Assembly: GCA_000827325.1 (NCBI GenBank)
Contig: KN832889.1
Location: forward strand, 124,001 to 188,000
Source: Oidiodendron maius Zn
Lineage: Eukaryota; Ascomycota; Leotiomycetes; Myxotrichaceae
Length of the DNA: 64,000 nucleotides
Reading direction: 5' to 3'
A program made the translations under genes and the position numbers. Shown piece after piece: positions 21,998 to 57,422 of the stretch. Under the pieces are notes generated by a model that had not been told where the DNA came from, ran no database searches, and saw only the letters and a program-made list of their open reading frames with translations. The first letter of the stretch is position 1. Every line of letters begins with the position of its first letter.

Positions 21998-22209
21998 GCC
22001 TAAACTATCTCAGCTTGGAGACATGTAAATGGTCGTCGAAACTATCTCTATAGATATTGTTATTATTTATTTTAATAACTTTGATAGAGACGGGCTTGGG
22101 GGACCTGTGTGCTATATACAACTAGCTTGTGATTTGTAATATACAAGACGGACGAGCTGAGAATATTTAAGTAGGTAGACCCACCTACACCACGCCAGCT
22201 CTTAGCTAC

Positions 22210-26908: not shown

Positions 26909-28881
26909 CTAACTTTCTTTAAGCTCATGATGATAGTCTTCTTTGATCAAATCTGCCGCCTTCTCCGCAATTGCATACACCGTCGCGATGATGTTCCCAC
27001 TAATCTGTGATGGAATCACACTTGCATCTACCACGCGTAGACCAGCCACCCCTTTAACTCGTAATCTTGTATCTACGACCTGGCCCATGGCACAAGTTCC
27101 CAAAATGTGGTTGAATATCATAGTCCGGTCTCGAATAAAATCCTTGGCCTGGGCGGGATCCTGCACATCTATCTCCGGCGCGGGATCAACCCTCTCCGCA
27201 ATCTTTCCCTTCACACACTCGGACTGGAAGGAAGACGAAGGGGATATAATTCGGTCCACAAAGGCTAATCCAGCAGCCAGGACATCCAAGTCAACCGGGT
27301 GGGAGAGTATTCCCAAATCAATCCGGGGGGATGATCCTAGAGACTCTGAAGAGGAGATGATGTGCGAACTGCCGCGTGATACAGGATACATTGAACTAAT
27401 GAGAAACGAGTAGCATGCATGTCGCCCGGGCCGAGGTCCAGGAACTAGAAGACTTTGGTTAGAGGCAGCATTGGCAATGTCGACGTTAGCAGGAAAGCCA
27501 ATATATTGAATGGCAGCAGAAGCTGGATTGCGAAGCTGGTCAACTATAAAATTGGCTTGTGCGCTCTGAAGCTTGTTATCTTGGTGGTGCGCGGATAACT
27601 CCTGGACACTGCGGACGGTCTCCTCCAATGATTCCTTATCAACTTGGGTTGCGTACGGCACAAACCCCATCAGTCCCGCCGGACTCGCCAACATTCCTGT
27701 TTGGTTCTCAGCAAGCAATCGTTGATGCTCTGCAAAGACGTCTGGATTAAGAAAAAGTGAATCTAGAGTGATATTGTCGTTATCCTTTCCAGGCGTGAGT
27801 TCGTATATGATGCTGGTCATGGGATGTTCCTGCAGATTCTCGCCAACACTGGGGAGGTTAACGACACAATCGATGCCCGCAGCAGAGAGAACTTCCGGGT
27901 TGCCAACCCCAGAGAGTTCAAGCAGGCGAGGACTTTGAATCGAGCTGCAACATAGGATTACCTCTCGGTTTGCCAGGGCCTTGTATACGACCCCTCTGTG
28001 CTCGAAGCTAATGCCTTTCGCACTCACGGATTGATCAGAGCTTCCATCTCTCTCCAAATGGATCTTAGATACGGTAGCTTCTGTAAGAATCTTCATATTC
28101 TTCTTCTGTAAGATTGGGACAAGATATCCCGTCGTTGCATAGCTGCGACTGACTTTGCCGGCCTGACTCCGGTCTACGGTGTGCGAGCTTCCAAAGAAGC
28201 CCAAGTGGGATCCTTGCATTGGGTCTGCTGTCGGCGGAAACGGTAGATCCGTCTTATCTGCAAACGCTTGGAGGATCGAATCTTCGATAGGCGCTCTCCA
28301 GACAGGGAAAGAGGTATGGATGGGACCGGCTGTTCCGTGCTTAACTGCATCTAAAACACATGATTCGGGCCAGTCTTCGCGATTCTTTTGATAGCTCGTC
28401 TCACTCTTGTGATAATATGGCTCCAGATCGGCCCATGACCAGCCTTCCATATTCCACGAGTCAATATCCTCGGCGTTTGGTCGCACATAGGCCATAAAAT
28501 TGATAGCGCTAGATCCTCCCACAACCTTTCCCCGAGCAATATGAAGGATGCGGCAGTTTGAGCTTTGCTATTACCCCACATATTAGCCCCGCCTAGCGTT
28601 GTGTGCCTGTGAAATATTTATACCTGCGGCACGCTTTTAAATGCCCAATCATAATCCGCATTATTCAACATGGCACTCATTCCTCCCAGCGACTCAATAT
28701 TCAAATCGCCTAGGCGCAATTTTCCTGCTTCTAAAATGCCGACTTTTGCATTTGTTTCAGCGAGGCGGGCGGCGAGCACGAGCCCCCCCGTACCGCCCCC
28801 AATTATGAGATAATCGAAAGGCGATGATAGAAAAGAGGTCGCATCTTTGCAGAGACTGTCAGTAGCGGGTAATTCTGCCAT
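26909..28881 (-). CDS. GMC-family flavin oxidoreductase
   Basis: Two exons, 28881-28624 and 28567-26909, with a 56-bp intron, give 638 residues. The N-terminus has the FAD-binding Rossmann motif DYLIIGGGTGGLVLAARLAE at residues 23-42. Splicing restores HIARGKVVGGSSAINFMAYV, the first GMC signature. SSIQSPRLLELSGVGNP is the second. The C-terminus has HILGTCAMG, with the catalytic histidine region, and SGNIIATVYAIAEKAADLI. GMC enzymes oxidise alcohols (aryl-alcohol, glucose, choline and others) using FAD and oxygen or another acceptor. There is no signal peptide, so it is probably intracellular, which fits a biosynthetic role better than lignocellulose attack. Length is normal and the frame intact. 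It lies at the edge of the putative metabolic cluster; membership is inferred. Confidence 0.92.
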
Positions 28882-30312
28882 TTTTAACCTCAAAAGCTCA
28901 GTCGATCCAATGGATAATCGAAGTTCTTTGCTCTCTGCACCCTATTAAAGATTGTCGTGGGGAGGGGATGCATTATATGCCCTACGAATGCACGGGTTGT
29001 TCTGTAGGCACCCGTAGACCAGTACGAGGCAACAAATTCCATGGAGATCATTTATGTCCGATCTCACGTAATCCCTCACTTTTGTCTCCACACTTTCAAC
29101 GATGAAGTGCACGGAATGCAGATCGCAGATTTCTTAGACGTTACAAAAGTATGCCTGTCTCTATTTCTCTTCTTGTGTATACTTAAGCAGGACTGAAGAG
29201 TACGTTGTGCAAGCCGTATATATGCAACTACTGCAGGAGAGCCAAGACCTTTTTCTCACAAAAAGAGGGATGCAGTTCACTGCGGAACCGGGTCTTAGGG
29301 AACTCGATAGCCCGAGACATTTGGCTCGCCAATGCTGACACAAAGGATATCGATGTAGAAGGAGACGCGACGCGGACAGGACATGATGCGTGAGTTGGTG
29401 CCAGCGCTAATCTAGACATGGGATGCCTTTTCGTGGTGCTAGCAGTAGAATATTTTGTTAGGCACGGAGCAGCTGCCTAGGCTTCGCCACCAGATTTTGG
29501 CGGGAACGCTATCTCCTGCGGTATCGGTATGATTGGTTCGATTTAAGCTTAGTAGAGGATCCGCCATGACCTCCAGGATACAATAGTTCAGTATCGGCAT
29601 TAGTCTACAGGTCGGCATCCCGCGATGGGGTACCTTACCAGTGGCTGTGTATTTCTCCTAGGACTCTCATTCCTGCATATTGATGGCTTTTGGGCTGTGC
29701 TAACCATACTTGTATGGCAGGGAAGCATTTAATATTTAGGTCTCTTTATGGTATCAGTTCCGGCATACTTGGCTACGGAATACACAGTGGCGAAGTTGGC
29801 AGAATATCCTTATACCTATTTAAGAGTTTCTTGAGAATATTCAATTTAATATTCGCTATTATTGGTCTTCGATTTATCATTCACGAACGCAAGAAGTCAT
29901 TAACTTCGAAGCATAAACTTGAACGACATGAAGTTCGTTTACCTCCTCAATGCTCTCAGTGTCTCAACGGTAGCCTTGATGCCCCAGACGGTTAACTGTT
30001 TGTGCCTCGTCGTGATTGTATTACTAATATATACTTAAAAGTTTGGGTGTCTAGTATATCACGAGGTTGCCCTAAAATGGCACCTGATAACTAGTATTAT
30101 GTGCCTCACTTATTCAAGGCGTTGAGGCCTAGGCTAAGGTAAATACCTCACTTACCTAGACGTTAGATACAACCCCACACGGCACGAGTAAAATATAAGA
30201 TTAGGACTTTAGGAGGTGCTTTATATATATTAGGGAGTACGCACCTCTGTAGTAGTTATCTATCCTTTCAGCGCACCACCTGCCTACTCACTTCACCTTC
30301 TGCTCTCCTCCT
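28882..30312. other. Intergenic, GMC promoter side
   Basis: 28882-29100 should contain the GMC promoter. 29690-29995 is an open but unrecognised frame with hydrophobic residues. 30000-30312 is AT-rich and repeat-like and leads into the LINE relic. No intact gene is seen. Confidence 0.45.
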
Positions 30313-30610
30313 TTAGGCAGGAGCTGCAGCCCTACAGGCCTGATTCTTGTCCTCTGCCTTCGGAGGCGGGTCGCCACTGCTGTGCAGGCGCTGCGCACCC
30401 TTCTTGGCTATGCCTGTGTGTTCAAGCCTTGACTCGAATTCTGCAACCCTCTTGTCGAGGTATATATGGATTGGTGGGGTGGCCGCTTCGACCTCAAGGT
30501 ATCGAATCTGAGTTGCTCGGTATCCCCCAGTTACTGTACGGAGGCAGTCGGACTGCGCTGTACTAAGGTGGCTGGTGATGCCCCTAGGGTTCGCCCCTGC
30601 TAAATATATA
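30313..30610 (-). mobile_element. LINE (Tad-like) 3' coding relic
   Basis: The minus-strand frame ends with QSDCLRTVTGGYRATQIRYL followed by VEAATPPIHIYLDKRVAEFE. This is the conserved post-reverse-transcriptase segment of fungal Tad/I-type non-LTR retrotransposons. Only about 90 residues remain and the reverse transcriptase itself is absent. The pogo-like element begins at 30611, directly at its upstream edge, so it may have inserted into or beside this relic. It is non-functional. Confidence 0.65.
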
Positions 30611-30658
30611 ACGTGCATGTATAGCGAGTCGTAAATATAAGCGAGTCGTAAGTTTTTC
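30611..30658. repeat. Left terminal inverted repeat of pogo element
   Basis: Begins ACGTGCATGTATAGCGAGTC and contains the 11-bp word GCGAGTCGTAA twice in direct orientation, about 18 bp apart. One transition separates it from the right end. Confidence 0.95.
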
Positions 30659-30690
30659 TAAGAATCACGACCCTGTTACTTTAAAATCTA

Positions 30691-32325
30691 ATATCTCAAC
30701 CAAAAATCATAGAGTCAGTTTCTCAAGAAAGCAGAATACTCTTAGCCCTTCAAGCAATCAAACCACCTAGGGCTATTAATCTCTACCAGGCTGCAAAGGT
30801 CTATAATGTGCCTTATACTACATTACGCGATCGGAGCCATGGAATACCTGCACGACGCGATATTCAACCTAAATCTCGAAAGCTTACTGATTCAGAAGAA
30901 TTAGTGATTGTCCAATATATTCTTGACCTTGATTCTAAAGGGTTTCCACCTAGGCTTTGTAGTGTTGAAGATATGGCTAATCGTCTGCTTATTGAGCGAA
31001 ATGCAGGACGCGTCGGAACGCGCTGGGCTTCAAACTTTATAAAACGATAACCACAGCTTACTACACGTTTTAATCGAAAATATGACTATCAAAGAGCGAA
31101 ATGCGAAGATCCAAAGCTTATTGGCGAGTGGTTTGCCCTTATACGGAACACAATTGCAAAGTATGGGATCGTGGACGCGGATATCTATAATTTTGACGAG
31201 ACTGGGTTTATAATGGGCGTTATCTCAACAGCAATGGTGGTTACAAGCTCAGAGAGGTCTGGTAAGGCAAAGGCAAAGCAGCCTGGTAATCGCGAATGGG
31301 TTACAGTAATCCAGGCTGTAAATGCGCTTGGCTGGTCGCTGCCGCTATTTATAGTTGTAAAGGGCACATATATCCTACTATCCTGGTACAATGAATTCAA
31401 ATTACCAAAGCATTGGAGGCTCTCTGTGAATAATAATGGGTGGACTACAAATAAGATTGGCCTAGAATGGATTAAGCACTTTGAATTACATATACAGCCT
31501 CGAAAAGTGGGTGGATATCGACTCCTAATACTTGATGGCCATGAATCCCACCACTCGACTGAATTTAAGCTTTTCTGCCAGGACCACAATATTATTATAC
31601 TCTGCATGCCTGCTCACTCCTCTTATATATTACAGCCACTTGATGTGGGCTGTTTTAGTCCATTAAAAAAGGCGTACGGCAAGCAAATCGAGGGGTTAAT
31701 GCGTGGTGGTCAGACCTATGTTGCAAAGGAGGATTTCTTTCCAGCATTCCAGGTAGCATTCCAAGAGTCAATGACTATACAAAACATCCAGGGAGGCTTT
31801 AGGGGGACTGGAATTGTACCTTTTGACCCTCAGCGAGTACTGGATACCCTCCCTCCTTATACAAAAACACTGACTCCTTTAAACTCACGTCCTGGTACAG
31901 CCTAAACCTGGAACCCTATAACCCCAAAGAATGCAACCGATGCTTCACGACAGTCTGCCTTCATTAAAACCCGAATTAATTGCCATCAGGGTAGCTCTCC
32001 AACACAGACTATTGATGCTATAGACCAATTTACTAAGGGTTTAGTGGCAATTATGCATGAGGTAGCTTTATTGCGATCCCGAATCACTGAGCTTGAAGAG
32101 GCAAACGAGAGGCTTAGCAAGCGTCACAGGCTAAAAAAAACCAGACTACAAAAAGGAGGATCACTTTCTATACAGGAGGCAGAGGACTTAGTAGCTCAAA
32201 CTAATGTGGGTGGCCAGCAGGGTGATGAAATAGATAGTAGTGGTGGTCAGGACCAAGGGGTACAATCGTGCATTCGGCGTTGTAGCAAGTGTAATAAGGC
32301 AGGGCATAATGCGCATACTTGTTAA
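30691..32325 (+). pseudogene. Fot1/pogo-like transposase, damaged
   Basis: The frame has the order usual for pogo-class transposases. First is an N-terminal psq-type helix-turn-helix (ESRILLALQAI...YQAAKVYNVPYTTLRDR), then a CENP-B-type DNA-binding region (KLTDSEELVIVQYILDLDSKG). The DDE core follows: YNFDETGFIMG, LLILDGHESHHS and LQPLDVGCFSPLKKAYG, in which the three catalytic aspartates are visible. A coiled-coil stretch (LRSRITELEEANERL) and a C-terminal zinc knuckle, CSKCNKAGHNAHTC, close the protein. Two TAA codons interrupt the frame (31048 and 31903), and the expected first codon at 30691 reads ATA rather than ATG. All can be explained by C:G to T:A change, as RIP produces. It is unlikely to make active enzyme. 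Confidence 0.88.
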
Positions 32326-32422
32326 AGGTAATATAGGCCTCTAAAGAAGGAGAAATATATAGTAGGAATTGATTTCAAGGTATTATAGTTGAATAATAAT
32401 TAATTTTAATAATAAGGTTACT

Positions 32423-32470
32423 GAAAAACTTACGACTCGCTTGTATTTACGACTCGCTATACATGCACGT
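32423..32470. repeat. Right terminal inverted repeat of pogo element
   Basis: Reverse complement of 30611-30658 with a single C/T difference; ends in GACTCGCTATACATGCACGT. It carries the same doubled internal word, in the opposite orientation. Confidence 0.95.
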
Positions 32471-33152
32471 TATATATATATTACTATATAATATCTTGTT
32501 CAGAGGCAATATAGGTGCACAGGTTATAGTCGGATCAAGGTGAAACTCAGTTATATTAGCTATTGAGTCATGCAGAGACAACTAAGGGGACTAGACTACG
32601 GAATACAACACTTATTATATGCCTGCTTAGGTGGCAATATGTGTAAGCTTTTACGACTATACAGTCGTATGCTATTGCGTATGTTGCCACTAACTCTGAG
32701 ACATTATACGTGCTTGAAGCCCTGATACTAGTCAACATAATATAGTTATAGGCAACCTAGATATAATTATAGGCTTTACTCTAATCAGCCTGTTAAGTAT
32801 AGGCAAGCATGAAGGGTATAAGATTAGTTGATAATTGACGGTAAGTAAGCCTTATATACATGTACGTTAGTGGTAATTGATCAATTGGACGGTTAATTGG
32901 TGATATTATACGAATTGGATGTCCAATTCGGCATATTAGTGTCCATTTCATGAATTGTACGATTTGATGAATACCATACTACAATGCATCTAAGGGTTTC
33001 CAACTTCCTTTGTAAACAAGTTCTTCATCAGGTGCAATTCGAGGAAGATGACTAGATCCTCCGTACATTAGTCGTAATCCTTCAAGAATAACGGCGCTAA
33101 TGTTTCTCCAGCGTTGGCCAAGCAGGAAGGTTGGTTGGATCTGGGACAACAG
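32471..33152. other. AT-rich flank of pogo element
   Basis: AT-rich DNA without coding potential. Small palindromes occur (for example ACGACTATACAGTCGT at about 32655) and the words AATTGG and CCAATT recur around 32880-32945, so this is probably older repeat debris. From about 33000 it merges with the 3' flank of the carboxylesterase. Confidence 0.4.
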
Positions 33153-35044
33153 CTACCAAGACCCCTGCGCCGCAAGGTTGGCCGCTGCAAATGCATTGAT
33201 CGGGGCAAAGAGCTGACAATTCACATCTACAACCTCCCGGCTCAATACCTGAACGCCGCTTGAGCCATTAGTCCCCAACACCCCAAGATCAGTGCCATCA
33301 AAGGTGTCTATAGCATTCCAGCCCGGTCCGGCTAGGGGGGTTTTGGCAAATCGGGCCCATGCTCCGCGCATATAATTGCTAAGGGCGAATTGTTGCGCTG
33401 TGAACTTAGGAGGGTAAGTCGTGAAGACTTGAGCGATCTCGGCAGAGTGATAAGCCGCAAGGTCTGGGAGAACCTGCTGGTTGGCGAAGGTGGCGTTATA
33501 CCAATACCTGCAAAAAGTGGGGGAGATTGCTTAGCATTTGCTCTGTATCTGTGCGAGGCCTGAATCGAAGAGAATTTGAAGCGGGGTTTTCTTATTATTG
33601 GCTTAGAGGATCTTCTTACCTCCAGGTCGGATAGCCTGCGGAGGCGCTCTGGCTGATCATAGCAGCTTGGGGCTATGGGAGTGATGGGTTGTTAGAGTGG
33701 TGGTGAGCATGCCCATATGGGAAACAGTGACTTACACAAGTATCGAGTAAATCTGTATAGATCTGCGCAATAACTTCAAACTCGTTGCTCGTCCCAAAGG
33801 CACCTATTGGATACGCATCTGTGATAGCTATTTGTAGAGCTGGGGTCATTCCAGGTACCTCCTGGAGGAACTTTGTTAGGTTGGTTGTACCATATATCAA
33901 GGCCCAGGCCCTGCCTTCTTGCCCATTAGTCCCAGCCATGATGGACACGTTGGCTACATTATGAGCTGCACGTGCGGCAGCTGTATCTTGAACTGGAATA
34001 AGCGTAACATTATCAATAACTGGCCGGAATGATAGAGCAGCGTGTTCAATAATGCTCTGAATTGTCGTAGCATCGGCGGATCTGACACAGCTCAAATTCG
34101 ATGTGGTGCTAGAGCAGTTCAACGCCGTCGTAAGCTGGACCCAGCTCTCTGTGCTATTGATCCCGACATCGGAGATTAGTGGCACCGAGGACTGTCCGCT
34201 CTCAAGGATGGCAGCGCGGAAGGGGGGGTTATCTGGCCAGGAGGTAACTAAAGCGTCGACAGAAGTTGCGCCGGCAGACTGGCCGAAGATGGTAACTTTC
34301 TCGGGATCGCCTCCAAAAGATGCTATGTTCTCCCTCACCCATTCTAACGCAAATCGTTGATCGAGGAAGCCCAAGTTGCTTTGTGTGAGTGGAATCTCTG
34401 GAGAGTTTGGGAAGCCGAAAACTGTCTTGCATTTCAGCATATTTTCACCATTTGCTTATTCTTGTAGTAGCAAACCATTTGTCCGATAATTAGCAGCAAC
34501 AATAATAACTTCTTCAAAAGCAGCAAAGTGTGAGCCGTCATATAGCGGTTGCCCAGCATTGCCAAATCGGAAACTTCCTCCGTATATCCAAAAGAGCACT
34601 GAATAGCCGCCGGTAGGAGGGGCAGTGGACGGAGCGAAGACATTCAGGTATAGGCAATCTTCACTTTCCTCAGCTTGTGGATTGTTGAAGAAGAGATCAG
34701 TGAGATATCGTTTTCGCTCTGGATCTATAACATATGGGGGTCAAATTTACTTGGACATGAAAGGATGGTGCATACTCACAATTGATTTGCTGAGTACAAG
34801 CCGGGCTCTGGACCGATGTGTTTAGTGGATTCGTCCATGCTGGTGGCTTTGTGGGAGGGGAGAATCTTTCTGGTCGGGCTGCGAACGGAATGCCTAAGAA
34901 CTGGTTGACGGTAGCTGTCGCCGATGCTATAGAGGTAGTTGTGCCTATCACTATGCCAGATGCCAAAGTCGCCTCTGGAAGGCAATCTGCAGCAACTATC
35001 CAAATGGCAGATAAGACCGCTGTGATCGTATATATAATTGACAT
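33153..35044 (-). CDS. Secreted type-B carboxylesterase
   Basis: Five exons (35044-34780, 34724-34476, 34421-33736, 33672-33620, 33507-33153) give 535 residues with consistent phases. Residues 1-20 form a signal peptide (MSIIYTITAVLSAIWIVAA). Family motifs follow in order: GIPFA, SEDCLYLNVFAP, FWIYGGSFRFG (oxyanion-hole region), the NLGFLDQRFALEWVRENIA block, and the nucleophile GQSAGATS with serine near residue 220. TNGQEGR carries the likely acidic residue and AYHSAEI the catalytic-histidine region. Type-B carboxylesterases/lipases hydrolyse esters; in clusters they may unmask or trim products, but a secreted one may simply be digestive. A MITE-like element starts about 107 bp upstream of the ATG. 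Intact. Confidence 0.92.
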
Positions 35045-35150
35045 CGCTGGCTATGAAATAAAGAAAATAAAGCTGCAGTTCTAAAAGCCAGGTAAACTGT
35101 GCAGAGACGATGATGAGCGGAGAGCGACCTACAGTCGGTACAAGGAATAT

Positions 35151-36481: not shown

Positions 36482-38440
36482 TCACGCTTCACCTTCCCAG
36501 TCCCACGCCTGTCGGTTCACGTTCATGTCAACCCTGTTCCCCCAGAATTCCACCCCATCCAGAGCATACTCGTGCGGACGGTAGTCCGAGATGTGGAAGT
36601 ATTGTTCTAGCATTTTCGTTTTCATGGCTTTATCTGAAGCCGTCCGCGGCACGTCCTCCCCATCTTGTAGAATCCGTAACAGCGCTGGTAATTTATACAA
36701 CTCAATAGTCAATGCCAGATCATCGCGGATCTTCTGGAGATTGATAGTTTGCGTTTGATATTCTTGACTGTTAGGTTTCTGGAGGCGAACGAGGGCGGCA
36801 GCCAATCCCTTGGATTCATGGTCCAGAACGGGAAGTACGTAAGCTTCAGAGATATAAGGGAGCCGCATGATATGTTCCTCGAGCTCGAGGACCGGGATCT
36901 TGAAGTGCCAAAATCGAATCCCTGTGTTCGCGTGGATTGAATTGTAAGTGAGAAGTTTGTGCTGCAAAGGGCAAGGAGCGTTGGGTTACGCACAATCACA
37001 TGTAGCCCTGCCCTCGAAGAAGTACTGGTCTCCGACCCGGCGACCAAGGTCGCCAGTTTTGAAGAAGCCTTCCTCGTCAAAGGCGGCCTTTGTGGCGGCT
37101 TCGTCTCCGATGTAACTGTCATCAAGCGTCAGCCGACCAGTTCAGGACTGACGCGTATATTATAACCCCTACTGGGTGAACATCCAGGGACTCTTGACAA
37201 GAATTTCGCCTTGCTCTCCATCGGAGAGTTTGACAATGATGCCTGGAAATGGCTTGCCAATGCACCTCTAAATATGGCACGATTAGGAATGCTCGCCAAA
37301 GAAGAATCCGGAAGTACAAGTGCGAATTAACAGACATCTACGTAACGAGCGCCTTGTGTGCTCGTTATCCCCCCTAGCTCAGTTGCCCCGAAGACGTTTC
37401 GGATGGGCATGTTGGAGAGTTCCTCCCAAAAGCGTGCTGTGACCAGGTTCAGCGTGGAACCGCTGCACTTGATGTCCTGAAGCCGGGCTACACCAGCAAT
37501 ATATCGCTGGTGCTCTTCGGGGGGCAGATATCGGATGTGGGCGTGGTAATAGTCCTGGAGGTCTTTGAAAAGGGCCGGGGCCAGGGAAACGGATGTAATG
37601 TCGCCTTTCTTGAAGAGCTCCCAGAATGCCGCCGGTGACGGGCGGCGCTTCATGAAATGGATTTTTCCTCCTTGCAGAAGCTTGAAGATGGGTGGTACAG
37701 CACCTCCGATCCAATGCACTGGCCGGTATGCCAGGTAGTGGCTGTCTTGGTCCATCGTGGCTTGAAAGAAGAATCGCCGGCGGGGGATCACCACACCTTT
37801 GGGCCGGCCCGTGGTACCCGACGTGAAGACAATCAAGCATGGATCGGTCGGGGCGAGGATTAGGTCGTCATCAATCTCCATCAAGGGATATGGACTGGAC
37901 CCGGCTGCTGCTCTCGGCATGGGCATTGTATGCAGAGGTTGGTTTGTTTTGTTTTCCATGTGATCCTTGATCGCAGCGGCCTGCTGAACGGTATTAGGCT
38001 CAGTTAGGAGATAGTTTGCTTCGCATGCATTCAAGAAGTAGAGGGCTTCTTCCGTAAGAGCGCCGGGCGCTGAGAGCGATAGACATGGTGATTAGCATTA
38101 CTTTGCAACTACCTCGAATACAGAACTCACGTAGCGGGACACATGTCCCTCCGAGGGCTAAGATGGTGAGGAAGCCGACGATGTAATAATAGCCACTGAT
38201 GGTGATGGTGGCGATGGACCCCGCCTCTTGTCGCAAAAGACCTGCACTATCGAACCAGTTGCGAGGGAGCTCTTTTCGAAGGGCTTCCCGCAGCTGGGCG
38301 ATGTCATTCAGCAGATCGCCGTACTCTGCATCAATGCCATACTCATCATGGATGCGCGCTCCCGTAACCTCGTGACTGAGCTGTGCCAGTTGGGTGAAGA
38401 TGGGGTCGTTGGGAAACTTCTGACTCTTCAAATAGTCCAT
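36482..38440 (-). CDS. AMP-forming acyl ligase A (ANL family)
   Basis: Five exons (38440-38131, 38069-37342, 37267-37173, 37115-36994, 36921-36482) give 564 residues, phases consistent. Adenylation motifs are clear: IVFTSGTTGRPKGVV (P-loop-like A3), VFGATELGG (A5), FKTGDLGRRVGDQYFFEGRA (A7/A8), with splicing restoring RATCDWIRFWHFKIP, and RTASDKAMK with the C-terminal lysine. It should activate a carboxylic acid as acyl-AMP and pass it to CoA or another nucleophile. There is no carrier-protein or condensation domain, so it is not an NRPS module. Ligase B (52917-54927) is a paralogue with the same layout and the shared ending AWDW. The ATP-grasp gene lies 524 bp upstream on the same strand. 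Intact; substrate unknown. Confidence 0.9.
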
Positions 38441-44424: not shown

Positions 44425-46200
44425 CTATCCATCAGGTAGGAGGCGATGAAGCCGCAATGAAATTTACATTTAGGAACCCGTGCCCGAAATTCAAGTGTCA
44501 ACCCTCTTTTCAACCTTAGCCGGAGCCAGTTGCACCCATAGCTTTGGGGATCTCCAAATGCCGTACGTTTTCATACTTTCGTCCCATTTCAGGCTTTCTT
44601 CACAAAGAGACATATCAAAATTCCAGAAGAGCCTACATAAAACGACTCTCACCTCCGCATCTGCTAAACTAGAAAGATGTTAGCATATCGAAATCCTACG
44701 CAACCACTTGTGCTCACTTTCTACCCAGGCAGCTCCTTGGACCTATGCCGAACGCCTTTATTACCCCTTTCTTGTCGCCAGTGTACCTTTCCGGACAAGG
44801 AGCCATCCATCTGTCGGGAATAAATGTGTGAGGATCTGTGAAATTATCCTTGCTGCGATATGCACTCCAACTCTGAACGCCAACAAAAGTCTTGCCAGGG
44901 ACATATTTCCCACAAATTATTGCGCCATCTGGCCGAGTAAAACGTGGAAACGTGATGGCAATTGGGGGCCTCAGACGTTTGGTCTCCTCGATAGTCGCGG
45001 CCAAGTATGGTAAAACAAGAGTGGTTGACATATTGATCTCATAACTGTGAGCGAAGGCATTACGAATCTCAGATTTACAGCGTTTATGAACATCTGGATT
45101 CGATAGTATTAGGTAGACTGCGGAAGTCAGAAGTGTTGCTGTTGTCTCAGTTCCAGCAAACAAGATTTCAATTGCTGTAGCATTTAGTTCCGTCCGGGAT
45201 ATGCCATTTGTCGCATTCAGCTGGGATATTGCAGTTTTCAGACTGTCTTTGTGAACATATTATTTTTACTGAGAGGGCAGAGTAAACCTACAAGTCTGGT
45301 TCTGAATTTGCTTTGGCAATACGTTTATCCAGGAGTTCATTAGATGCGGTAATTGCTTGGTGGAACCAGGGGAGAAATCTAGGTGGAACTGCTCGGACAA
45401 GAAATTTGACAATTGGAACAGCACGGTGAGTAGCCGCGACAATTACAAACGCAAAGAACGCCTTGTCTAGATGTTTCGTTCCATTGAAAAGTTAGTTTTC
45501 ATCGTCTATGGGGACATCGAACACTAACACAGTATGATGATCACCGCGATGAAGTGAGTTGAAGGATTGACCGAACATCAAGTCACTGATGACATCGGAA
45601 CTGAACAGAGTCATCCAATGGGAAATATCAACTTTACCGTGGCTCCTAGCAAGCATTTTGATTATCAAGTCAAAATGTCTATTTAGCCTGGGCTCTTGGT
45701 CTGTTAGGCTCTTGTTGGAGAAACCAGCTGCGATTAATTTTCTAATCCGCGCATGCCCTATGTCGTCTTGGACGGTAAATATGCCCTCTTCGTCCATCGG
45801 AACATGGCCTTCAAGCTCTTTGGACAATGAAATCCTACCAGGTTTCATAGAATAAATGTCGTACCAAGCTTGTGGTTCAATATAGGACAGCTCATTAGGA
45901 GCGATGCGAACAACTGGTCCATATTTTCGGTGCATTATCTCTGTCCATAGATGAGTGTCTCCATAGTAAATATGCCACAACCAACTTAGTCGGCTACAGC
46001 AACTCAATGGATGCCCTGGGTAAGATGACAAAGGATGCCAAAATAAATTGTATGACACGCAGCCGAAGGAGAGAAAAGTGCACTAAATACGAGCGATTAG
46101 CATGCTTTTTACAATTACTGGCAAGGGCTCATACCACAATGACGCAGCACTTCAAAACCCCCCATATTCCAACTGTCAGTGAATATAGCTGCGCATCCAT
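44425..46200 (-). CDS. Cytochrome P450 monooxygenase
   Basis: Five exons (46200-46135, 46082-45525, 45461-45292, 45242-44718, 44668-44425) give 520 residues. The first, 22-codon exon plus the start of the second encode a membrane anchor, followed by LFWHPLSSYPG and RKYGPVVRIAPNELSY. FAGTETTAT (I helix, oxygen activation) is near residue 292, EETKRLRPP contains the ExxR pair near 350, DPHTFIPDRWM follows, and FGIGPRSCLGR is the haem-thiolate loop with cysteine near 435. The microsomal type uses NADPH-P450 reductase. The layout resembles fungal secondary-metabolism P450s. The exon 2/3 donor is chosen among three close in-phase candidates (45516-45531). The gene is transcribed away from the ABCC transporter, with 1.4 kb between starts. 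Intact; substrate unknown. Confidence 0.93.
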
Positions 46201-47597
46201 CTTTCGGCCCTTCGTTCGACAATCGGTTTTATCGCCGGGTTTTCACGCCAAAGATTGGCTACTCTGGTGATAGAAATAAATTGAACATCTGGATTTGTCA
46301 CCAGTTTGCACGGTGAATAATTATAACTAGTCCGACAGGGGCGACTAGATCTCTAATGGTCCGGCGGCATTTGTTCGCCACGGAGATATTTTATTTCGGT
46401 CAAATAGATGTCTTGAGTCCTCAACTAGCTGTTGAATATACTTCCAATAGACATATAGCCTTTGCTGACATGAGACTAAGTGGAACAACAAGAAAGGGAA
46501 CTAGGTAGGAATGGGCATTGAATGAAGATCCATACATACGCCTGCTTAGAGAGCTTACCCGGAAAGCAACACCCTCGCAGATCATCTACGGCTACCTCCG
46601 TTATATTAACAAGAAAATCATCGTGGCCCATGATGTGGTCTTAACAGGTTTCAAATGGAGGAATCTGATCCTAACGGAGAGACATTCCGGTGCTGCAAAG
46701 GACGATGCACCAGCTACCGGTATGCTTCGGTCGTAGAGTAACCACTAAATTTAAACGAGTACGAGGACGTCTGAGACTTCTTGACCACCATTGACTACGG
46801 AACTACTTTCTATATACAGTATCCCTTCACCTATGCTAGCCGCGTGCAGTGGCCGTCACGTATCGCGTATAGCTTGTCGGTTACAATGGTGAGCATATCA
46901 CGGCCATGCCCGCGAATGTTTGTTATACTGGTATCAACTACTAACACGCACTAAGAACTCTGCACAGTAATTTTCTTTCTATTGGCTTAATACTATACTA
47001 TATTTGAGAATACTTTGCAATTTTGTTTTCCTAGACCTCAATACCTTGACTTGCACCGAGGCTACTAGATTGTACACACCTCCACGAAAAGAAACTGACG
47101 AACAAAGTAATCGTACTTATCTATTCATACCTAGCATTGTCGCATCCTGCCTTATATTTACATATATGCAGCAGTTGTCAGACTGAATGCTCGATCAGTT
47201 GAATTTATGGATAACCACTTAATGTACCCAAATTCTGACGAGTTAGGTAGGTATTCCACCAATCTACCTTCACCCACGTATGTTTCAACATTGATTTTGT
47301 TCTGCATCCTAGCCTAGCATAAAGCCAGTGTGTTAGTAGATCAGTGCCGATCTAATTTCGTGTGTCTAGTAAAAACCCTAATAAAGACTGATCATCGACG
47401 ACGTAGCAGGTTTGTGGTCCCGTTGTATGATATTAGAATAGAAATCGAAAGCCAAATTTCTTTTCTTACGTAGAGGGGCGCATTTTCCTTCGGAGCTGGA
47501 CCCGATCTGTATCATAAGTATGGCCCGAATGCGTTTCTCAAATCTCGCGATTTTGATTTTGTGGTACTCAACTGGAGGTACTGCTCTCAGCACGGCC
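46201..47597. promoter_or_regulatory. Divergent intergenic region, P450 / ABCC
   Basis: About 1.4 kb separates the start codons of the minus-strand P450 and the plus-strand ABCC transporter, so both promoters must lie here. Only short frames occur. I did not find a motif I could assign to a named regulator. Confidence 0.55.
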
Positions 47598-50500
47598 ATG
47601 GCATCGACTTGCCCGCCTTACATTGACGATGCCTTCGGGCCAGTCGTCCATGGATGTCGTTCGAATTTTGATTTCACGCTCCTATTTGAGGACTCTATAC
47701 TTTCCATCGGCCCCACAGCCTTGCTTCTCATATTTGTACCTCTACGACTAGTCAAGCTCTGGAGGTCGAGTAGAAAGACCGTGCCTAGCACAATGCGTTC
47801 CCTTAAATCAGTCAGTCAACTAGATATGCTGTAGTATGATAAGGAGCTGATAGCCTTCAGATTTTGGCTGTGCTCCTGATTGGAGTTCAACTTGGACTGT
47901 TGATTTGCTGGTCGTCTAACACTGTGATGCGTGCTGTTGTTCCGTCCGCGACGCTTTCCTTCGTGGCCGCTTTCGCGCTGTTGTTCTTATCCCGTCTTGA
48001 GCATAGTCGATCGGTACAACCTTCATCCATCCTCAACATATATCTTTTAACATCCGTAAGCTGTGATACTCTTCAAGTCCGCACACTCTTCCTCAGACAT
48101 GACAAACCGGTGATAGTTGGTCTGACAACGGCGAGCGTCGTGATAAAATCGGCCCTTCTGCTTTTGGAAAGCAAGAGCAAACGGGAACATCTGAGAGCCC
48201 CGTATAAAAGCTATCCGCCTGAAGTAACAAGTGGAATTTACAATCGACTTTTCTTCTGGTGGATTAATCCTATTCTTGTAACCGGCTTTCAAAAGCTTAT
48301 TACTTCGGACGATTTATTTGCGGTTGATTCATCACTCACGTCAGAGGCCCTCCTCGTCGAAATGCAATCCTCCTGGTCTAAATGCAAGCACCATGATACG
48401 TGACTCTAGTCACTGCTGACATCGTCTAGATCGAGATTCTGGGAAATACGCCCTAGTTTACGCAGTCTTACACTGCTTGAGGTGGAAGCTCGCATCCATC
48501 ATATTGCCACGCCTCTGTCTCATTGGATTTAACTATTCACAACCGTTTCTCATTTCCACAGCTATAAACTTCGTTTCACAGGCCGGTGACCCTCCTAATA
48601 AGAGCTACGGGCATGGGCTGATCGTGGCAACAGCATTAATATATTTTGGAATTGGAGTACATCACTGCCCTAGGCACATTGACTACGCTTACCAGTCTTG
48701 CAGATTACCACGACTGGATATAAACACCGCATGAATCGGACCATAACTGCATTTCGGGGCGCTATGGTGTCTATAATATACGCCAAAACCTTGCAGCTTC
48801 CCGCGGGACTCTACGATGAATCAGCGGCGCTGACGCTGATGAGTACCGATATTGACAGACTTGCCGTCAGTCTGGATTCTTTAAATGAAATATGGGCGAG
48901 ACTAATTGAAATATCAATCGGTATATGGTTGCTTGAGAGGCAGCTTGGCTGGGTTTGTGTGGCGCCTATTGTCATTATTGCAATTTCTGTCTCCGCCTCT
49001 TCTTGGGCTACCAATCAAATCGGACCCAGACAAGCACAATGGGTGAAAGCCATTCAGAAGCGAGTTGGAATCACATCATCGATGCTTGGATCTATGAAGA
49101 GCGTGAAAATGATGGGCCTATCCGATAAGCTGTTTGACACCTTGGACACTCATAGGATTAGAGAGCTCCAACTTTCAAAGCATTTCAGGATGATGAGTCT
49201 TTGGCGCGTTTTATTATGTGAGCATATATCTTTTCAGCAGTAGTAACCTCTACTAACAGAGAAAGCGTTCATCCCGACTATTTTTGCACCTCTATCTTGC
49301 TTCGTCATTTTTGCCATCCAATTATCACACCATGGATCAGACCCATTAACTGCTGGTGACACCTTTTCATCGTTGGCTATAATTTCTCTGCTCACAAGTC
49401 CAGCTAGCAACTTTCTTCAGGCGCTTCCCCTAGTTGGAATGTCCACTGGATGTTTGTATAGGATACAGAAATTTCTGCTTTCTGAGTTACAGGAGGATGG
49501 GAGGAGTGTTTTAGTTGGAGTCTTGCATCACACCGGTGGCGAATCACAACTAAAAGAATGTTGTTCTGAACTACAAGAATATCAGCCAAGGAGTACAGAG
49601 AACGTTGCCATTACATTCAAGGACGCAAATATCCCGGCCTCTCCAACATCTCCTACAGTTTTGCATGATATCAACCTACAAATTGAGCAAGAGTCATTGA
49701 CTATGATTATTGGAGTCGTTGGTGCGGGCAAGTCTACCTTGTTGAAAGCTATAATTGGGGAGTTGCAATGTACTTCTGGTTCCATAAGCAGTGACTCGAA
49801 GCATATGGCATATTGTGCCCAGGCACCCTGGCTCCCAAACTCTACAGTGCGGCGAATTGTTTGTGGTTACCATGACGGGTCAGATGAAGATGAAGAATGG
49901 TATAACACAGTACTGCATGCTTGCACATTTGACGAGGATGTCAAGCTCCTCCCCGATCACGACGACACAATCATTGGAAGTCGGGGTGTGACTTTGAGTG
50001 GAGGCCAGAAGCAGAGATTGGTGGGTTATCAGTTACAGCCAAATTTGTAATATCCACTGACCCACTCAGGCACTAGCTAGAGCCGTCTACTCGCGCCTTA
50101 GCACGATCGTTCTTGACGATGTGCTCAGTGCTCTCGACGCCCGTACCGAAGACTTGGTTGTAGAACGGTTGATTGGAAAGACCGGTCTTCTCCGAAAACT
50201 GAAGTCTACAGTCATCTTGGCAACACATGCTGGTAAGCATAAACAGACTCCTAGATAGAAGATCCTTGTGTTAATCTGTTGCTCTTAAAGTCCGCCACTT
50301 ATGGCTGGCAGATAGCGTCATAGTTATTGGGGTAGATGGACACATTGCGGAGCAAGGAAGCTCCGAAACCCTCCTATCACAAGATGGCATCGTCGGCGAA
50401 CTGCCATTAACTCCCGAACTCCAATCCAATCTACACTCTGACCCAGGACCCAATTACGGTGGCGACTCGAAGTCAAGGCCATGTGGCACTATTCCCAAAG

Positions 50501-52503
50501 CCCTTCGAGGCGCAACTGCTAATGACGCCGCTGACCTAGCTCGTCGAATAGGGGACTTTGCGGTTTATAAGTATTACCTGAAATCAATCGGTTGGAAAGT
50601 TGGATTAGTGTGTATAGCATCCTGCTTTGCATCCATGATAGGTCAAACGTTCCCACGTAAGTATACTCGAATCTAGGGTAACAGGCCCAAGCTTATCTAT
50701 CAGAATTCTGGTTGACTTTATATTCCAATGGTACGGTTAAGAGTCTTCCGCTTTTTGCAATCATCTACGTGGCTGCGGCCGTTGTGGCGCTGTGCGCAAT
50801 AGCTGCCACGCTATGGTCTAGGGCCCTATCCGTATTAATTCTCATAAGCTGAAAGTTTCCAGGACACTTTACATGATAATTACTCCCAAGACAGGAATTG
50901 GTCTGCATAGAACCATCTTGAAATCAGTTACGAGAGCCTCTCAAACTTTCTTTGATGAGACAGACTCCGGCGTCACCTTGAACCGTTTCAGTCAAGACAT
51001 GACGCTTATTGATGGTGCATTACCAAGAGCTGCGGTGATGTCATTGTGGAGTAGGTCATCAATCATACCTCCCACAATAGCGAAACTAACGATTTTAGCT
51101 GGGATGCAATGCATTGCTCAATTCGCCTTGATTGCAGTAGGGTCAACTTATATGGCCATCATATGTCCTATTATGATATGTGCCCTATACCTCCTTCAAA
51201 AGTTCTATCTCCGTACATCTCGGCAAATGCGATTCCTATATTTAGAAGCTAAGAGCCCATTATATACGCATTTTAGCGAGACTTTGGAAGGGCTTTCAAC
51301 TATAAGAGCATTCGGATGGCAAAAGCACTTCACCAACACTAATCACAGGTATCTTGATATCTCTCAAAGGCCATACTATCTTATGTTCTGCATTCAACGA
51401 TGGCTTAATCTCTTCTTGCTCCTGATTACTGGTATCACCGCCGTTGCGGTTGTTGCACTAGCGACTAGTTTTATCGGAAGTACTAGCCCAAGTAACCTTG
51501 GCGTATCCTTGAGTTCTGTGACCAGATTTAGCGATAATATGTCGCGGTTCATGGGGTTTTGGATTCAACTTGAAACGTCACTTGGTGCTATTTCTAGGAT
51601 TAAATCCTTCCAGGAGGGGACTATAGCGGAGAATAAAGAGGGGGAGAGCTTTGTTCCCAGTAAGGACTGGCCCAGTCGAGGTGCAATCATATTTACGGAT
51701 GTATCCGCTGCATATAGGTAATGATGTTGTTCTCAAATCATAATTGAAAGGCATAATGACCAGCTTCCAGAGACAATCCGCCGGCGCTGCGTAATGTTTC
51801 ATTCACCATTAACCATGGCGAGAAGATTGGGATTTGCGGCCGCACGGGCAGGTAAGTGAGACCTTCCATAATCTCGGCAATTACTGACGGTCCCAGTGGT
51901 AAGAGTTCACTTCTTGCTGTTCTCCTTCGTATTCTCGATAACTCCTCCGGCACAATCAAAGTCGACGGCCTAGATCTTAGCACTATCCCACGCGAAATAA
52001 TTCGATCAAGACTTATTGCCATTCCTCAGGAACCCTTTATACTGCCCGGGTCTGTCCGGCTCAATGCCGATCACACAGGGCTTTCTTCTGACGACCTCAT
52101 CGTTGGCACACTCTCTAAGGTTGGCCTTTGGAGCGTCCTAGAATCTAGAGGTGGACTAGATGCTGAGATGGGGGCAGATATGCTTTCTAAAGGCCAACAG
52201 CAGATGTTCTGCTTAGTCAGAGCGATTCTAAGAAAGAAGAGCACGATCTTGGTGCTTGACGAGGCGACGAGCAATATTGATACAGAGACAGACGGAGTGA
52301 TGCAAAGATTGATCAGAGAAGAGTTTGCAGGACGGACTATTATTACTGTTGCACATAGATTGGATAGCATCATGGACTCGGATAGAATACTTGTTCTGGA
52401 TGGTGGAGTACTTGTAGAAAATGGGTCACCGGAAGAGCTGCTATCCAAGAACGGTGTGTTTTGGGAGCTGAGTACAAGAACTCCAATGCCAGGTGTGCCA
52501 TAG
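47598..52503 (+). CDS. Full-length ABCC (MRP-type) transporter
   Basis: Twelve exons sum to 1,455 residues: 47598-47810, 47861-48383, 48430-48656, 48704-49217, 49266-50020, 50070-50232, 50291-50656, 50704-50815, 50863-51050, 51099-51717, 51771-51851 and 51897-52503. The N-terminus (CPPYIDDAFGPVVHGC then DFTLLFEDSILSI) starts an extra membrane domain as in fungal MRP pumps. TMD1 follows, then NBD1 with GVVGAGKST, LSGGQKQR and STIVLDDVLSALD. TMD2 comes next (GVTLNRFSQDMTLID, SETLEGLSTIRAFGW). NBD2 has GRTGSGKSS, LSKGQQQM, ILVLDEATSNIDTET and AHRLDSI. Such pumps export conjugates, drugs or metabolites, often at the vacuole or plasma membrane. The second intron fits frame only with a GC-AG splice. 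An in-frame ATG at 47520 is a possible earlier start. It probably exports the product of the surrounding genes or protects against it. Confidence 0.93.
48384..48429 (+). other. GC-AG intron in ABCC gene
   Basis: The 46-bp intron begins GCAAGC and ends GTCTAG. None of the nearby GT donors I examined gave the phase needed by the next exon (RDSGKYALVY), whereas the GC donor leaves one base that completes a tyrosine codon. GC-AG introns are a known minor class in fungi. Confidence 0.65.
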
Positions 52504-52916: not shown

Positions 52917-54927
52917 TTATAACGCACTCGTGATATTAGTCTGTAAGCCAGCCCAATCCCACGCCCTCGGTATCCAGTTATCATGGCACGTCTCAGGATC
53001 CCATAGCTCGACATCAGTAGGCAACTCAGAGTCTTTTGAGAGTGGGAAATATTGGTCGACTGCCTTCTTCCGAATAACCTTATTGGATACGGTTTGGGGA
53101 ATTTCTTCCCCGTCCTGTAAAATGCGTAATACAGTTGGAAGCATATATGCTGGTAATGTACGTGCCAGGTGCTCTCTGAGGAATTGAAGGTATGTCGCAA
53201 ACGAGCCATGACAACCTACCTGTACTGCCTTTACGGAGTCCTCGAAGCGAACAAGGGCTGCCACTCGTCCACTGTTGTTGGAATCTGGGACTTGGAGGAT
53301 ACAGCCTTCAGATATGAACGGTAGATCCTTAAGCGCCTGTTCTACCTTCAGGATCTGCACCTTATAACCTTGGCACTTGATGACTGTTTTGATATTCAAT
53401 CGTGTCAGAATAATCTAGACCGCGGAGTGGAATTAAAAAAGATGCCAAGCGTAGAGAAAATTACAAACATACAGTCTCCGGATGCCCGTCCGTCCAAAAT
53501 ATAGTCATCTCCTATGCGGTGGGCTAGATCACCGCTTCGGTAAAAACCGTCGATGGAGAAAGCAGCTCGAGTTGCTGCTTCATCTCCTAGGTAACTGGCA
53601 TGCGTGAGTTGACGGGGCGAATTAATTTGAAAGATGTGACGATACGTACTGAGAGAAGAGAGAGGGGCTTTTAATAAGGATCTCCCCATGATCGCCTTCC
53701 GAGAGGTGTATGGTAACTCCTGGTAATGGTCTTCCAATGCAGAGCTTCAGTTGTGTCAGCATTTGATGCCTCTGACTTACTTGGGGCAAAAAAATTAGCA
53801 GGTGTGCACACCTCGAGATTTTCGTCCGTATCATCAGTGGTACATGTTCCATAGCCGCCAAACTCTGTCGCCCCGTAAGCGACCTTGACCTTCTGACCCA
53901 AAATTCCTCGCCAAAACCGTAGCAGTGAAGGATGTGGCATTGAACCTGTAACATAAGCGACCCGAAGCCCTTGCGCTCCACGGATGTATGCGTTCAATTT
54001 TTCGAGAGGAAGGCAACTGAGATGATCATCGAAATATTTCATCATCGGTGTCCAGATATAAGGAGTCCCAGCGAGAATTGTCACTCCGCCCGTTTTCAGC
54101 CTTTCCCATAGGATTGACGGATTTGAGCTCGTAACTTCTAGCCGTGCCCCTCGTAGTGGCAGGCTGATTAGTGGCAGCATACCAGAGATCCAATGAGGAG
54201 GCCGGTGGCTCAAGAAGACGTCACCGTACAAGATTTTCGTATGAGACTCGTTGAAAGCTCGGGTGTGCACCACGGCCTTCGGAGGTCCGCTGGTTCCCGA
54301 CGTGAATAGCAGCACCCCGGGACGATGCGATTCAACTCTCATGTCCGGATTTATTTTCACGCACCCGCTATGAGGGTCTATCACAGGTGAAACTTTAATT
54401 GAAATCGGTAGCACTGTGACACAGAGGTCATGAGACGCGGCGTGCTCCTTAACTTCCGCGGCCAGTTGTAGATAGTCTTGACCTGCTAGGATAGTGGTTG
54501 ACTTGCATCGATGAAGAAGCTGGGATGCTTCTTCTGGTGATATTTCAGTTGCTTCCTCGCCCTATCATTAGCTAATCTCTTCAACCTCTAAAGGAGATAT
54601 TCTGGGTAACTCACAGAGTGGTACCAATGCTCCACCAATGGACAGAATAGCGAAAGAGGCTATAATAAACTCATAGTCTCCACGCGATAATATAAATACA
54701 TATGGGCTCTCTTCCCGGATAATATTCTGCTCGTCAAACATATCCTTGGGAAGAGATTCATACAATATTTCTCGCATTCGTAGCAAGTCCGTGAAGAATT
54801 GGGAGTAATCCGCGTCAACTCCATTCTGAGGGTCGTGAACAATGATCTGATGAACTTGCCGAAACACTCGGAGCAATTCGACAAAGGTAGGTTCATTTGG
54901 GAGTTCTGCATAGATAGCCTTCGTCAT
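52917..54927 (-). CDS. AMP-forming acyl ligase B (ANL family)
   Basis: A paralogue of ligase A with the same exon layout (ATG at 54927, stop at 52917). The N-terminal part PNEPTFVELLRVFRQVHQ and YEFIIASFAILSIGGALVPL leads to LLFTSGTSGPPKAVV (A3), HRPPHWISGMLPL, VAYGATEFGGYG (A5), LCIGRPLPGVTIHLSEGDHG, YRSGDLAHRIGDDYILDGRA (A7/A8) and TVSNKVIRKKA with the catalytic lysine. Splices at about 53820, 53650 and 53470 agree in phase. The first splice is uncertain: the best donor (GTGAGT after ALVPL) is one base out of phase with exon 2 (from 54561), so either a weaker GTACCA donor is used or a small indel is present. It should adenylate a carboxylic acid. It is divergent from FPGS and convergent with the ABCC pump. 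Confidence 0.83.
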
Positions 54928-55697: not shown

Positions 55698-57422
55698 ATG
55701 GCTCCAAGAGACACTTATAGTGTAAAATTCAGTATTGCTTTCGTAGATAATATTGTTACTAACAGGGTGGGTAGGAAGCTATTTCTAAGCTCAACAGCCT
55801 TGAGAGCAATAGCCAAGTTCGCCAGAGGTTTATCAAGGATGGAGCAAACTTCGAGGGTCTGATACCGCAGATGCGAGAATGGTGCCGGGAATGCGGTTAT
55901 AACGTTAGTAGTACCTTGAGGCGTATCAGCTGCGGTTGTGCTACCTTCAGAGGACCCCGAATAATCAAGGCTAATATAGTTATTAGATGACGGATATAGA
56001 CAGACTAAATGCCATTCATATTTCAGGCAGCAAGGGAAAAGGGTCGACATCAGCCTTCATATTTTCTATCCTGTCACAATACCTCAACCTCAACGGCAAG
56101 GTAAGCGCGTGTGATCCAATCTCGCAAATGCCATTTTATTAAGCATCAAGTAGCGGCAAGAAGACGAACAGATGACAAAGCTTGGGCTCTATACCTCCCC
56201 GCATCTCCATACCATTCGAGAACGGATACGCCTTCGCACTACGGCTGAAGAGCTTTTTTCAAGCACAGTCATCTCCGAGGAATTGTTTGGACGATACTAT
56301 CTGCAAGTCTGGGAGTCGCTTCAAATGGAAAAAAAATCGCGATTAGAACGCCCTTCATTCTTCAAATTCGTTACCCTGACTGCACTTCATACCTTTTTAC
56401 AAGAGGGGGTTGATACAGCTATAGTTGAAGTTGGCGTCGGAGGAGAGTACGATTCTACTAATGTTCTTCATCGACCGAGCGTGTGTGCAATCACCAGTCT
56501 GGGTCTGGATCATACCGATGTGCTGGGCAAAACTATTGAGGAAATTGCATGGCATAAAAGTGGCATCCTTAAGGAGGGTTGTCCAGCCTACACAGTTGAG
56601 CAGTCACCAGATATCATGGTGGCACTCAGGCGACGTGCCGCAGAGCGGAACGTGTGCTTACAGGTTATCTCTCGGCATCCCGACATCGATATAATGCCCT
56701 TAGGTTTAGCAGGAGATTTTCAAAAGATCAATGCAAGTTTAGCTATTGCCGTAGCTGCCGACCATCTGCGTCAAATGGGCTATTTGGACGTTCCTCATGA
56801 TATAATGGACGCACCGCTTCCTGAAAAATTCCGCAGAGGCCTCAGCGATGCGAGTTGGCCCGGGCGCTGTGAAACACGATGGAAAAATGGAGTTGCCTGG
56901 TGTCTGGATGGCGCGCACACAGTTGAAAGTATCCAGCTTGTCGGAGCTTGGTTTGCCAGCAAAATCCAGCAAGACTCATTAGCGGAACGGATTCTCATTT
57001 TCAACCAGCAGACACGAGATGCCGTCAAACTGCTTCATGATTTACGGCAGGCGATCTGCACATCAACTGGATCACAAAGCAATTGGAAACCATTCTCTCA
57101 TATTTTCTTCTGCACAAATATTGCCTGGTCCAAAGACAAGACGTTTGGCTCTGAACAGATGTCCATGATGGATTCAGGGAAGCCGGTAGGAGACCTTCAA
57201 ATCCAGCATCGCCTTGCAGAATTCTGGAAAAGTATGCCAGGCGAGCGCGACTCTGAGGTAACGGTTGTTCGAACTGTCGAAGAAGCGATCAACTCTACCC
57301 GACGACTCTTCTCCGAAACGCGAAACAAAGGCACACCGCAATTATCTTTAATAACTGGTAGTTTGCATCTAGTTGGAAGCGCTTCCGAGGTTCTCGGCTC
57401 GAGTAACGAACCCCTAGTTTGA
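55698..57422 (+). CDS. Folylpolyglutamate synthase-like (Mur ligase family)
   Basis: Four exons (55698-55721, 55775-55903, 55987-56100, 56172-57422) in phase 0 give 505 residues. The tiny first exon encodes MAPRDTYS and joins EAISKLNSLESNSQVRQRF, the usual FPGS start. Then come HISGSKGKGSTSAF (ATP P-loop, residues 65-72), GLYTSPHL and RERIRL (folate/omega-loop region), VEVGVGGEYDSTNV, SLGLDHTDVLG, and WHKSGILKEG with the conserved lysine near 218. The C-terminal domain has PGRCE, CLDGAHT and ILIFNQQTRD. The enzyme adds gamma-linked glutamates to folates using ATP. It has no evident mitochondrial presequence. Its place next to ligase B and the ABCC pump could mean a glutamylating biosynthetic enzyme, a resistance copy, or just a housekeeping neighbour. 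Intact. Confidence 0.93.

Follow-up and report, generated by a model that had tools for sequence, protein, structure and literature searches.

Can a fungal locus make amide bonds with stand-alone ligases, without a polyketide synthase (PKS) or a modular non-ribosomal peptide synthetase (NRPS)? The question is raised by positions 26,909 to 57,422 of a 64,000-nucleotide stretch (the window) of the Oidiodendron maius Zn genome, which lies on contig KN832889.1 and is referred to here as C20:124001-188000. The genome comprises 45.9 Mb in 58 contigs, and the searches for fungal relatives at the genome level covered this one genome. The original prediction, made from the sequence and a list of its open reading frames (ORFs), had named nine genes in this interval and suggested that they could assemble an amide or glutamyl conjugate without a mega-synthase. 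Spliced gene models were built with a simple codon-and-splice-site script and partly corrected by hand; their splice sites are predicted. Our computational tools confirmed eight of the nine identities, namely a GMC oxidoreductase, a carboxylesterase, two ANL (adenylate-forming) ligases, an ATP-grasp enzyme, a cytochrome P450, an ABC pump and an FPGS-like enzyme, all eight being intact models with no internal stop, and left the ninth name, an MpaB-type oxygenase, unconfirmed. In our view the locus is probably a secondary-metabolite cluster in which stand-alone ligases make an amide-bonded small molecule. The ligases that carry this reading are as follows.

38965..40510, minus strand: ATP-grasp ligase, Cp1B-like (497 aa, 2 exons; model without internal stop)
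36482..38440, minus strand: ANL1, a stand-alone adenylate-forming ligase and candidate amide bond synthetase (564 aa, 5 exons; PF00501, E = 2e-31)
52917..54927, minus strand: ANL2, a second stand-alone adenylate-forming ligase (580 aa, 5 exons; PF00501, E = 2.9e-24)

When the ATP-grasp protein was compared with the PDB, a single match was obtained, even at E values up to 10. This was Cp1B (9cjn; E = 1.1e-73), which bears out the earlier description of the gene as ATP-grasp-like. The two proteins are identical at 135 of 361 aligned residues (37%), across residues 143-511 of the 517-residue Cp1B chain; the comparison was made with the main part of the protein, the N-terminal exon of the model lying outside it. 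In the biosynthesis of the protease inhibitor E-64, Cp1B couples (2S,3S)-trans-epoxysuccinate with an L-amino acid; R139, D141, E163 and N165 are reported to be needed for its activity, and F175, V228, V477 and I488 to line a proposed side-chain pocket (PMC12568646). All four catalytic residues are kept in the alignment with 9cjn, using a chain numbering offset of 15 which was itself derived from these four residues. At the pocket positions, none of the four residues is identical, the corresponding residues here being T, T, G and M. Judged by its sequence similarity over most of its length and by its catalytic residues, the gene belongs to the Cp1B family. Because the catalytic residues are kept, we expect the enzyme to be still capable of forming acyl phosphates and amides, and the changed pocket points to the use of an amino acid that is probably different from that of Cp1B, rather than to loss of family membership.

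The same gene is inconspicuous to domain searches, as its pieces gave no match in Pfam and its main exon none in NCBIfam. A search of the 45.9 Mb with the ATP-grasp query returned one place at E ≤ 0.01, which was the gene itself. AlphaFold models predicted without an alignment were uninformative (mean pLDDT 36 and 34).

The ATP-grasp and ANL1 genes are on one strand with 524 bp between them, the ATP-grasp gene being upstream, and this pair is the firmest unit of the locus. ANL1 and ANL2 are identical at 194 of 556 aligned positions (35%), which indicates an old pair rather than a recent tandem copy, and genome searches with ANL1 (E ≤ 1e-6) and with ANL2 (E ≤ 0.01) each found only these two genes; the earlier claim that they are paralogous stands. 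AMP-binding domains as such are abundant in the genome, with 120 first-look candidates, of which 14 were scored. In their alignment the two proteins retain the nucleotide-binding motif of ANL enzymes as well as the C-terminal lysine typical of that family. No carrier, reductase or other further domain was seen in either model, nor a PTS1-like end. With the ATP-grasp gene 0.5 kb from ANL1 and 12.4 kb from ANL2, all the ligases of these types that were detected in the genome span ∼18 kb. By our own arithmetic, a randomly chosen place has a chance of ∼7e-4 of lying no more than 16 kb from any one gene.

The closest curated models to the two ANL proteins are generic CoA ligases and amino-acid adenylation domains, and these score far below cut-off. 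The main exon of ANL1 has weak, generic PDB matches only and that of ANL2 has none at E ≤ 0.001, which fits the reported unlikeness of Cp1D, the ANL enzyme of the E-64 pathway, to characterised bacterial amide synthetases (PMC12568646). In our reading ANL1 and ANL2 would act as amide synthetases rather than as CoA ligases, their likeness to Cp1D being one of description.

In E-64 biosynthesis, Cp1D amidates the product of Cp1B with an amine, such that two successive amides are formed with no NRPS (PMC12568646). It is this partnership, together with the presence here of a Cp1B relative with its catalytic residues, that leads us to propose amide formation by stand-alone ligases, and the Cp1B relative gives strong support to the earlier idea of amide assembly without a mega-synthase. 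The prediction that the locus has no PKS or modular NRPS also held, in that no carrier, condensation or ketosynthase domain was found among the 20 window ORFs scanned with Pfam. The cp1 and cp2 clusters of Aspergillus flavus and A. oryzae, which encode Cp1A-D, resemble our locus in having a Cp1B-type ATP-grasp gene adjoining a stand-alone ANL gene and in that no NRPS or PKS is seen, and they differ from it in that our locus has two ANL genes, a P450, an ABC pump, an FPGS paralogue and a changed pocket (PMC12568646).

Is this, then, an E-64 cluster? The minimal E-64 cassette consists of cpA, cpB and cpD, the pyridoxal-phosphate (PLP) decarboxylase gene cpC not being essential (PMC12568646). None of the genome matches listed for PF02668 (TauD; 0 of 28), PF03171 (2OG-FeII_Oxy; 0 of 24) or PF05721 (PhyH; 0 of 18) falls in the window. 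These three families were chosen to represent the iron- and α-ketoglutarate-dependent (Fe/αKG) oxygenases. No PLP decarboxylase was found among the scanned ORFs, with most of the ORFs in the gaps read by eye only. A standard E-64 cluster was thus rejected, and we do not call the locus an E-64 cluster, because the search of these three families turned up no cpA-type Fe/αKG oxygenase beside the cpB-like gene and the ANL genes. A true E-64-type cluster could in principle have its epoxidase (cpA) encoded elsewhere in the genome. The genome does hold many members of the oxygenase families, the nearest 2OG-FeII_Oxy match (C20:120,497-120,784) being just over 3 kb to the left of the window and ∼42 kb from the ATP-grasp gene, and cp1BCD without cp1A still yields fumaryl and malyl products (PMC12568646). 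Against this, the minimal cassette keeps cpA together with cpB and cpD (PMC12568646), the ATP-grasp protein is only 37% identical to Cp1B and differs from it at every one of the four pocket residues, and there are an extra ANL, a P450 and an FPGS gene to be accounted for. We consider this explanation unlikely.

A study of 2025 described the fungal route that combines an ATP-grasp ligase with an amide bond synthetase, and reported relatives of Cp1B and Cp1D with >30% identity in fungal clusters that are not homologous to the E-64 cluster (PMC12568646). The present locus is probably one such cluster. Two other fungal systems bear comparison. The AnkG protein of the NK13650 pathway, a proposed ATP-grasp ligase, is distantly related to Cp1B (∼30%; PMC12568646); it is likened to our enzyme by description only, and counterparts of its partners AnkA (tRNA-dependent) and AnkE (NIS type) were not seen among the scanned ORFs. 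The second is the lindolin pathway, as described in Kickxellales. Its CoA ligase LinA is presumably of the ANL kind. In that pathway too a fungal amide is formed by separate enzymes, LinA and LinB, with LinA acting first; it differs in that LinA is paired with an N-acyltransferase, the genes are not clustered and the abstract mentions no ATP-grasp enzyme (PMC10478498).

Whether the cluster extends beyond the ATP-grasp and ANL1 genes depends on what surrounds them. Pfam searches of the ORF pieces found the p450 domain, the membrane and ATPase domains of the ABC pump and the Mur-ligase middle domain of the FPGS-like gene, alongside AMP-binding domains in both ANL genes. The genes to the right of the ATP-grasp gene, other than ANL2, are:

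44491..46200, minus strand: cytochrome P450 (493 aa, PF00067; N-terminal hydrophobic stretch; model without internal stop)
47520..52503, plus strand: full ABC transporter (1416 aa; two ATPase domains and a TMD0-like part; each half matches PF00664 and PF00005)
55698..57422, plus strand: FolC/FPGS-family (Mur-ligase-type) paralogue (511 aa, 4 exons; model without internal stop)

The P450 carries the sequence FGIGPRSCLG, which we take to be the heme motif. We class the transporter as ABCC-type; its TMD0_ABC match is weak and below cut-off. The simplest alternative to a larger cluster is that only the ATP-grasp and ANL1 pair, with or without ANL2, forms a pathway, the GMC, esterase, P450, ABC and FPGS genes being unrelated neighbours in a region rich in transposons and HET genes. 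Such a view gains from the transposon between the GMC and esterase genes, from the HET genes on either side and the broken gene inside, and from the gaps of 0.4-4.3 kb between neighbouring models. The gene order argues the other way. ANL2 lies beyond the P450 and ABC genes, so that the block from ANL1 to ANL2 encloses both; the FPGS and ANL2 genes are divergent (head-to-head) with 770 bp between their starts, and the P450 and ABC pump share a gap of 1.3 kb. A set of chance neighbours is accordingly an explanation that we hold to be doubtful, whilst giving it some weight. Under the cluster reading, ANL2 is a likely member, as are the P450 and ABC genes inside the block and the adjoining FPGS gene.

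Membership is uncertain and weakly supported for the two genes at the left, for which Pfam found the COesterase domain and the N- and C-terminal GMC domains:

33153..35044, minus strand: type-B carboxylesterase (535 aa; PF00135, E = 1.2e-35; GQSAG motif; signal-like start by eye)
26909..28881, minus strand: GMC oxidoreductase at the left edge (638 aa; PF00732, PF05199)

The best PDB matches of the GMC protein are a putative glucose oxidase, a GMC oxidoreductase and aryl-alcohol oxidases, and the gene is separated from the esterase by 4.3 kb which holds the transposon. For the esterase the best PDB matches are, in order, a cholinesterase, a carboxylic ester hydrolase, a sterol esterase and then the fumonisin B1 esterase. 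The last of these, although it comes after the cholinesterases and the sterol esterase, allows the locus to be read as a catabolic or detoxification island, in which the ANL enzymes would be acyl-CoA ligases and the esterase, GMC oxidoreductase, P450 and ABC pump would break down and export a foreign ester. That the curated models nearest to the ANL proteins include CoA ligases, however distant, is in keeping with this. However, ligases of the Cp1B-like ATP-grasp and FolC types are synthetic, the 20 ORFs scanned yielded no beta-oxidation domain, and the ANL proteins are not closely like any CoA ligase of solved structure. We therefore regard a catabolic role as quite improbable.

The FPGS-like gene had been named as such in the original prediction, and its placement in the FolC family is upheld by NCBIfam TIGR01499, against which it scores 235.8 bits for a cut-off of 162.65. 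It keeps the motifs GSKGKGS, SPHL, DGAHT and GSLHLVG, whose roles we assume to be those of the FolC family. It thus resembles the FolC/FPGS proteins (TIGR01499; PDB 1o5z, 1fgs) in score and motifs, and differs from them in being a divergent paralogue sited among secondary-metabolite genes. There are four other FolC-like places in the genome, three of them FPGS-like (C3:448k, C3:460k and C5:362.8k) and one (C2:3.0M) which is presumably DHFS-like. The gene in the window is 38.5%, 36% and 32% identical to the three FPGS-like places in long tblastn alignments, in two of which stops or introns were read through, and 44%, 45% and 38% identical over the parts matched in the genome search. The two places on contig C3 are ∼12 kb apart and both score as FolC, with HIS7-like and mitochondrial-carrier-like frames (named by reading translations) nearby; the matched stretch at C5:362.8k contains a stop, which may be an intron. 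The idea that the window gene is the only housekeeping copy was rejected, given the three other FPGS-like places.

The presence of a divergent extra copy here suggests recruitment for glutamylation, or else a role in resistance. The glutamyl conjugate envisaged in the original prediction would depend on this gene. In the latter case the paralogue would be a spare, resistant copy of the target, and the product an antifolate or an FPGS inhibitor. A divergent extra FolC-family copy with intact motifs beside biosynthetic genes is what this would call for. On the other hand, the three further FPGS-like places mean that extra copies are not unusual in this genome, and no pterin-making gene was seen among the scanned ORFs, so that we think a resistance role very improbable. 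As for recruitment, it is possible, and we put it forward tentatively, that three classes of stand-alone amide ligase, namely ATP-grasp, ANL and a FolC/Mur-type enzyme drawn from folate metabolism, act in one pathway to give a glutamyl-capped pseudopeptide. In the open-access literature searched, among the papers listed and at the level of titles and the beginnings of abstracts, no report was found of a role for FPGS in a fungal biosynthetic cluster; in PMC12584700, FPGS is named in a single passage, a row of a gene-expression table.

Two further features lie within the locus, the second of which had not been mentioned in the original prediction:

41879..43563, minus strand: broken gene, 'MpaB-type' in the original prediction (name unconfirmed)
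30610..32471, no strand assigned: DDE_1 transposon between the GMC and esterase genes (PF03184, E = 1.1e-31; not part of the pathway)

The broken gene had been described as a damaged MpaB-type oxygenase, of which the damage is confirmed and the identity is not. In-frame stops are found at 42,705-42,707 and 42,159-42,161, where its paralogue on contig C9 (66% identical over 74 aa) is open; the first, close to a splice site, may be removed by splicing, whilst the second is mid-exon. Relatives in which the matched piece is open are present on contigs C9, C3 and C25. Pfam gave no hit for two pieces of the gene or for pieces of two paralogues, and none of the three genome matches to PF09995 (MPAB_Lcp_cat) is on the gene or its paralogues; the MpaB name was confirmed by no search. 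On contig C9 (446974-451706) a relative of the broken gene and a true PF09995 gene lie ∼4 kb apart. The transposon, which we take to be pogo/Fot1-like, looks recent: its inverted ends agree at 44 of 45 bases and its transposase stretch is open.

Several observations count against our interpretation of the locus as a working amide cluster. With a broken gene and a transposon in its left part the locus may be decaying, and the cluster may no longer be in use. A gene that would form the acid was not found beside the ligases in the search of the three oxygenase families, which could miss another family. The pairing was likewise not seen in the bacterial loci that were scanned. At least 253 bacterial loci encode a relative of the ANL proteins; in the best 80 of these, three relatives exceed 40% identity, over 31-55 residues only, and in none of the 80 is there a relative of the ATP-grasp enzyme (best E 0.62). 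A two-pattern scan of prokaryotes for relatives of the ATP-grasp enzyme itself matched 241 stretches, of which none was confirmed.

Further features were noted around the locus. Among the ORFs of ≥50 aa in eight gaps, which were read by eye, no further enzyme was recognised, and nothing stood out but a HET piece, which Pfam confirmed, and a Myb-like frame (58.7 kb). HET-domain frames lie on both sides of the locus (window 18582-24833 and 57832-58275), the left one being followed by a TPR-rich frame in an NLR-like arrangement; a run of 218 N in its TPR-repeat part (window 21293-21510) is a gap or a masked stretch. Beyond the HET genes, ∼11.7 kb to the left of the GMC gene, is a bHLH transcription-factor frame (window 14604-15257), a possible but unlikely regulator. 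To the right are a 157-aa frame (window 58727-59197) with a Myb/SANT-like end by eye and no Pfam hit, and an AT-rich stretch (window 61800-64000; GC 0.37) with dinucleotide ratios like those of repeat-induced point mutation (TpA/ApT 1.43), which is probably a decayed transposon. Just outside the window on this side (L017:415-1314) is a LysM-repeat protein with a transglycosylase SLT-like part.

The proposed pathway can be outlined as follows, the substrates, the order of the steps and the joint action of the genes being our inference. The Cp1B-like ATP-grasp enzyme would phosphorylate a small, probably dicarboxylic, acid and couple it to an L-amino acid. ANL1, ANL2 or both would then activate, by adenylation, the carboxylate that the pseudodipeptide still has, and pass it on to an amine. 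The acid or the product may be tailored by the P450, possibly with the GMC oxidase, and the ABC pump may export or sequester the product. The FPGS paralogue could glutamylate the product at a carboxylate, or serve some other role.

The NRPS-independent amide cluster is a kind already described in 2025 (PMC12568646), and the best reading of the present locus is as a variant of that kind, in which there are two ANL enzymes, one of them (ANL2) encoded head-to-head with a divergent paralogue of the FolC/FPGS family. Such clusters are easily overlooked because the key enzyme has no Pfam domain, and it is plausible that cluster finders miss them, as had been anticipated for this locus; in the main text of the antiSMASH 8 paper neither 'ATP-grasp' nor 'amide' occurs (PMC12230676). 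In this locus a Cp1B-type ligase is met in other surroundings: its pocket is changed, and a second ANL enzyme and an FPGS paralogue are present. The locus also provides defined enzymes for what may be a new amide product. A glutamyl-capped pseudopeptide, if made, would put FPGS to a use that is new in fungal secondary metabolism, and the locus offers a direct test of whether folate-type ligases were recruited into it.

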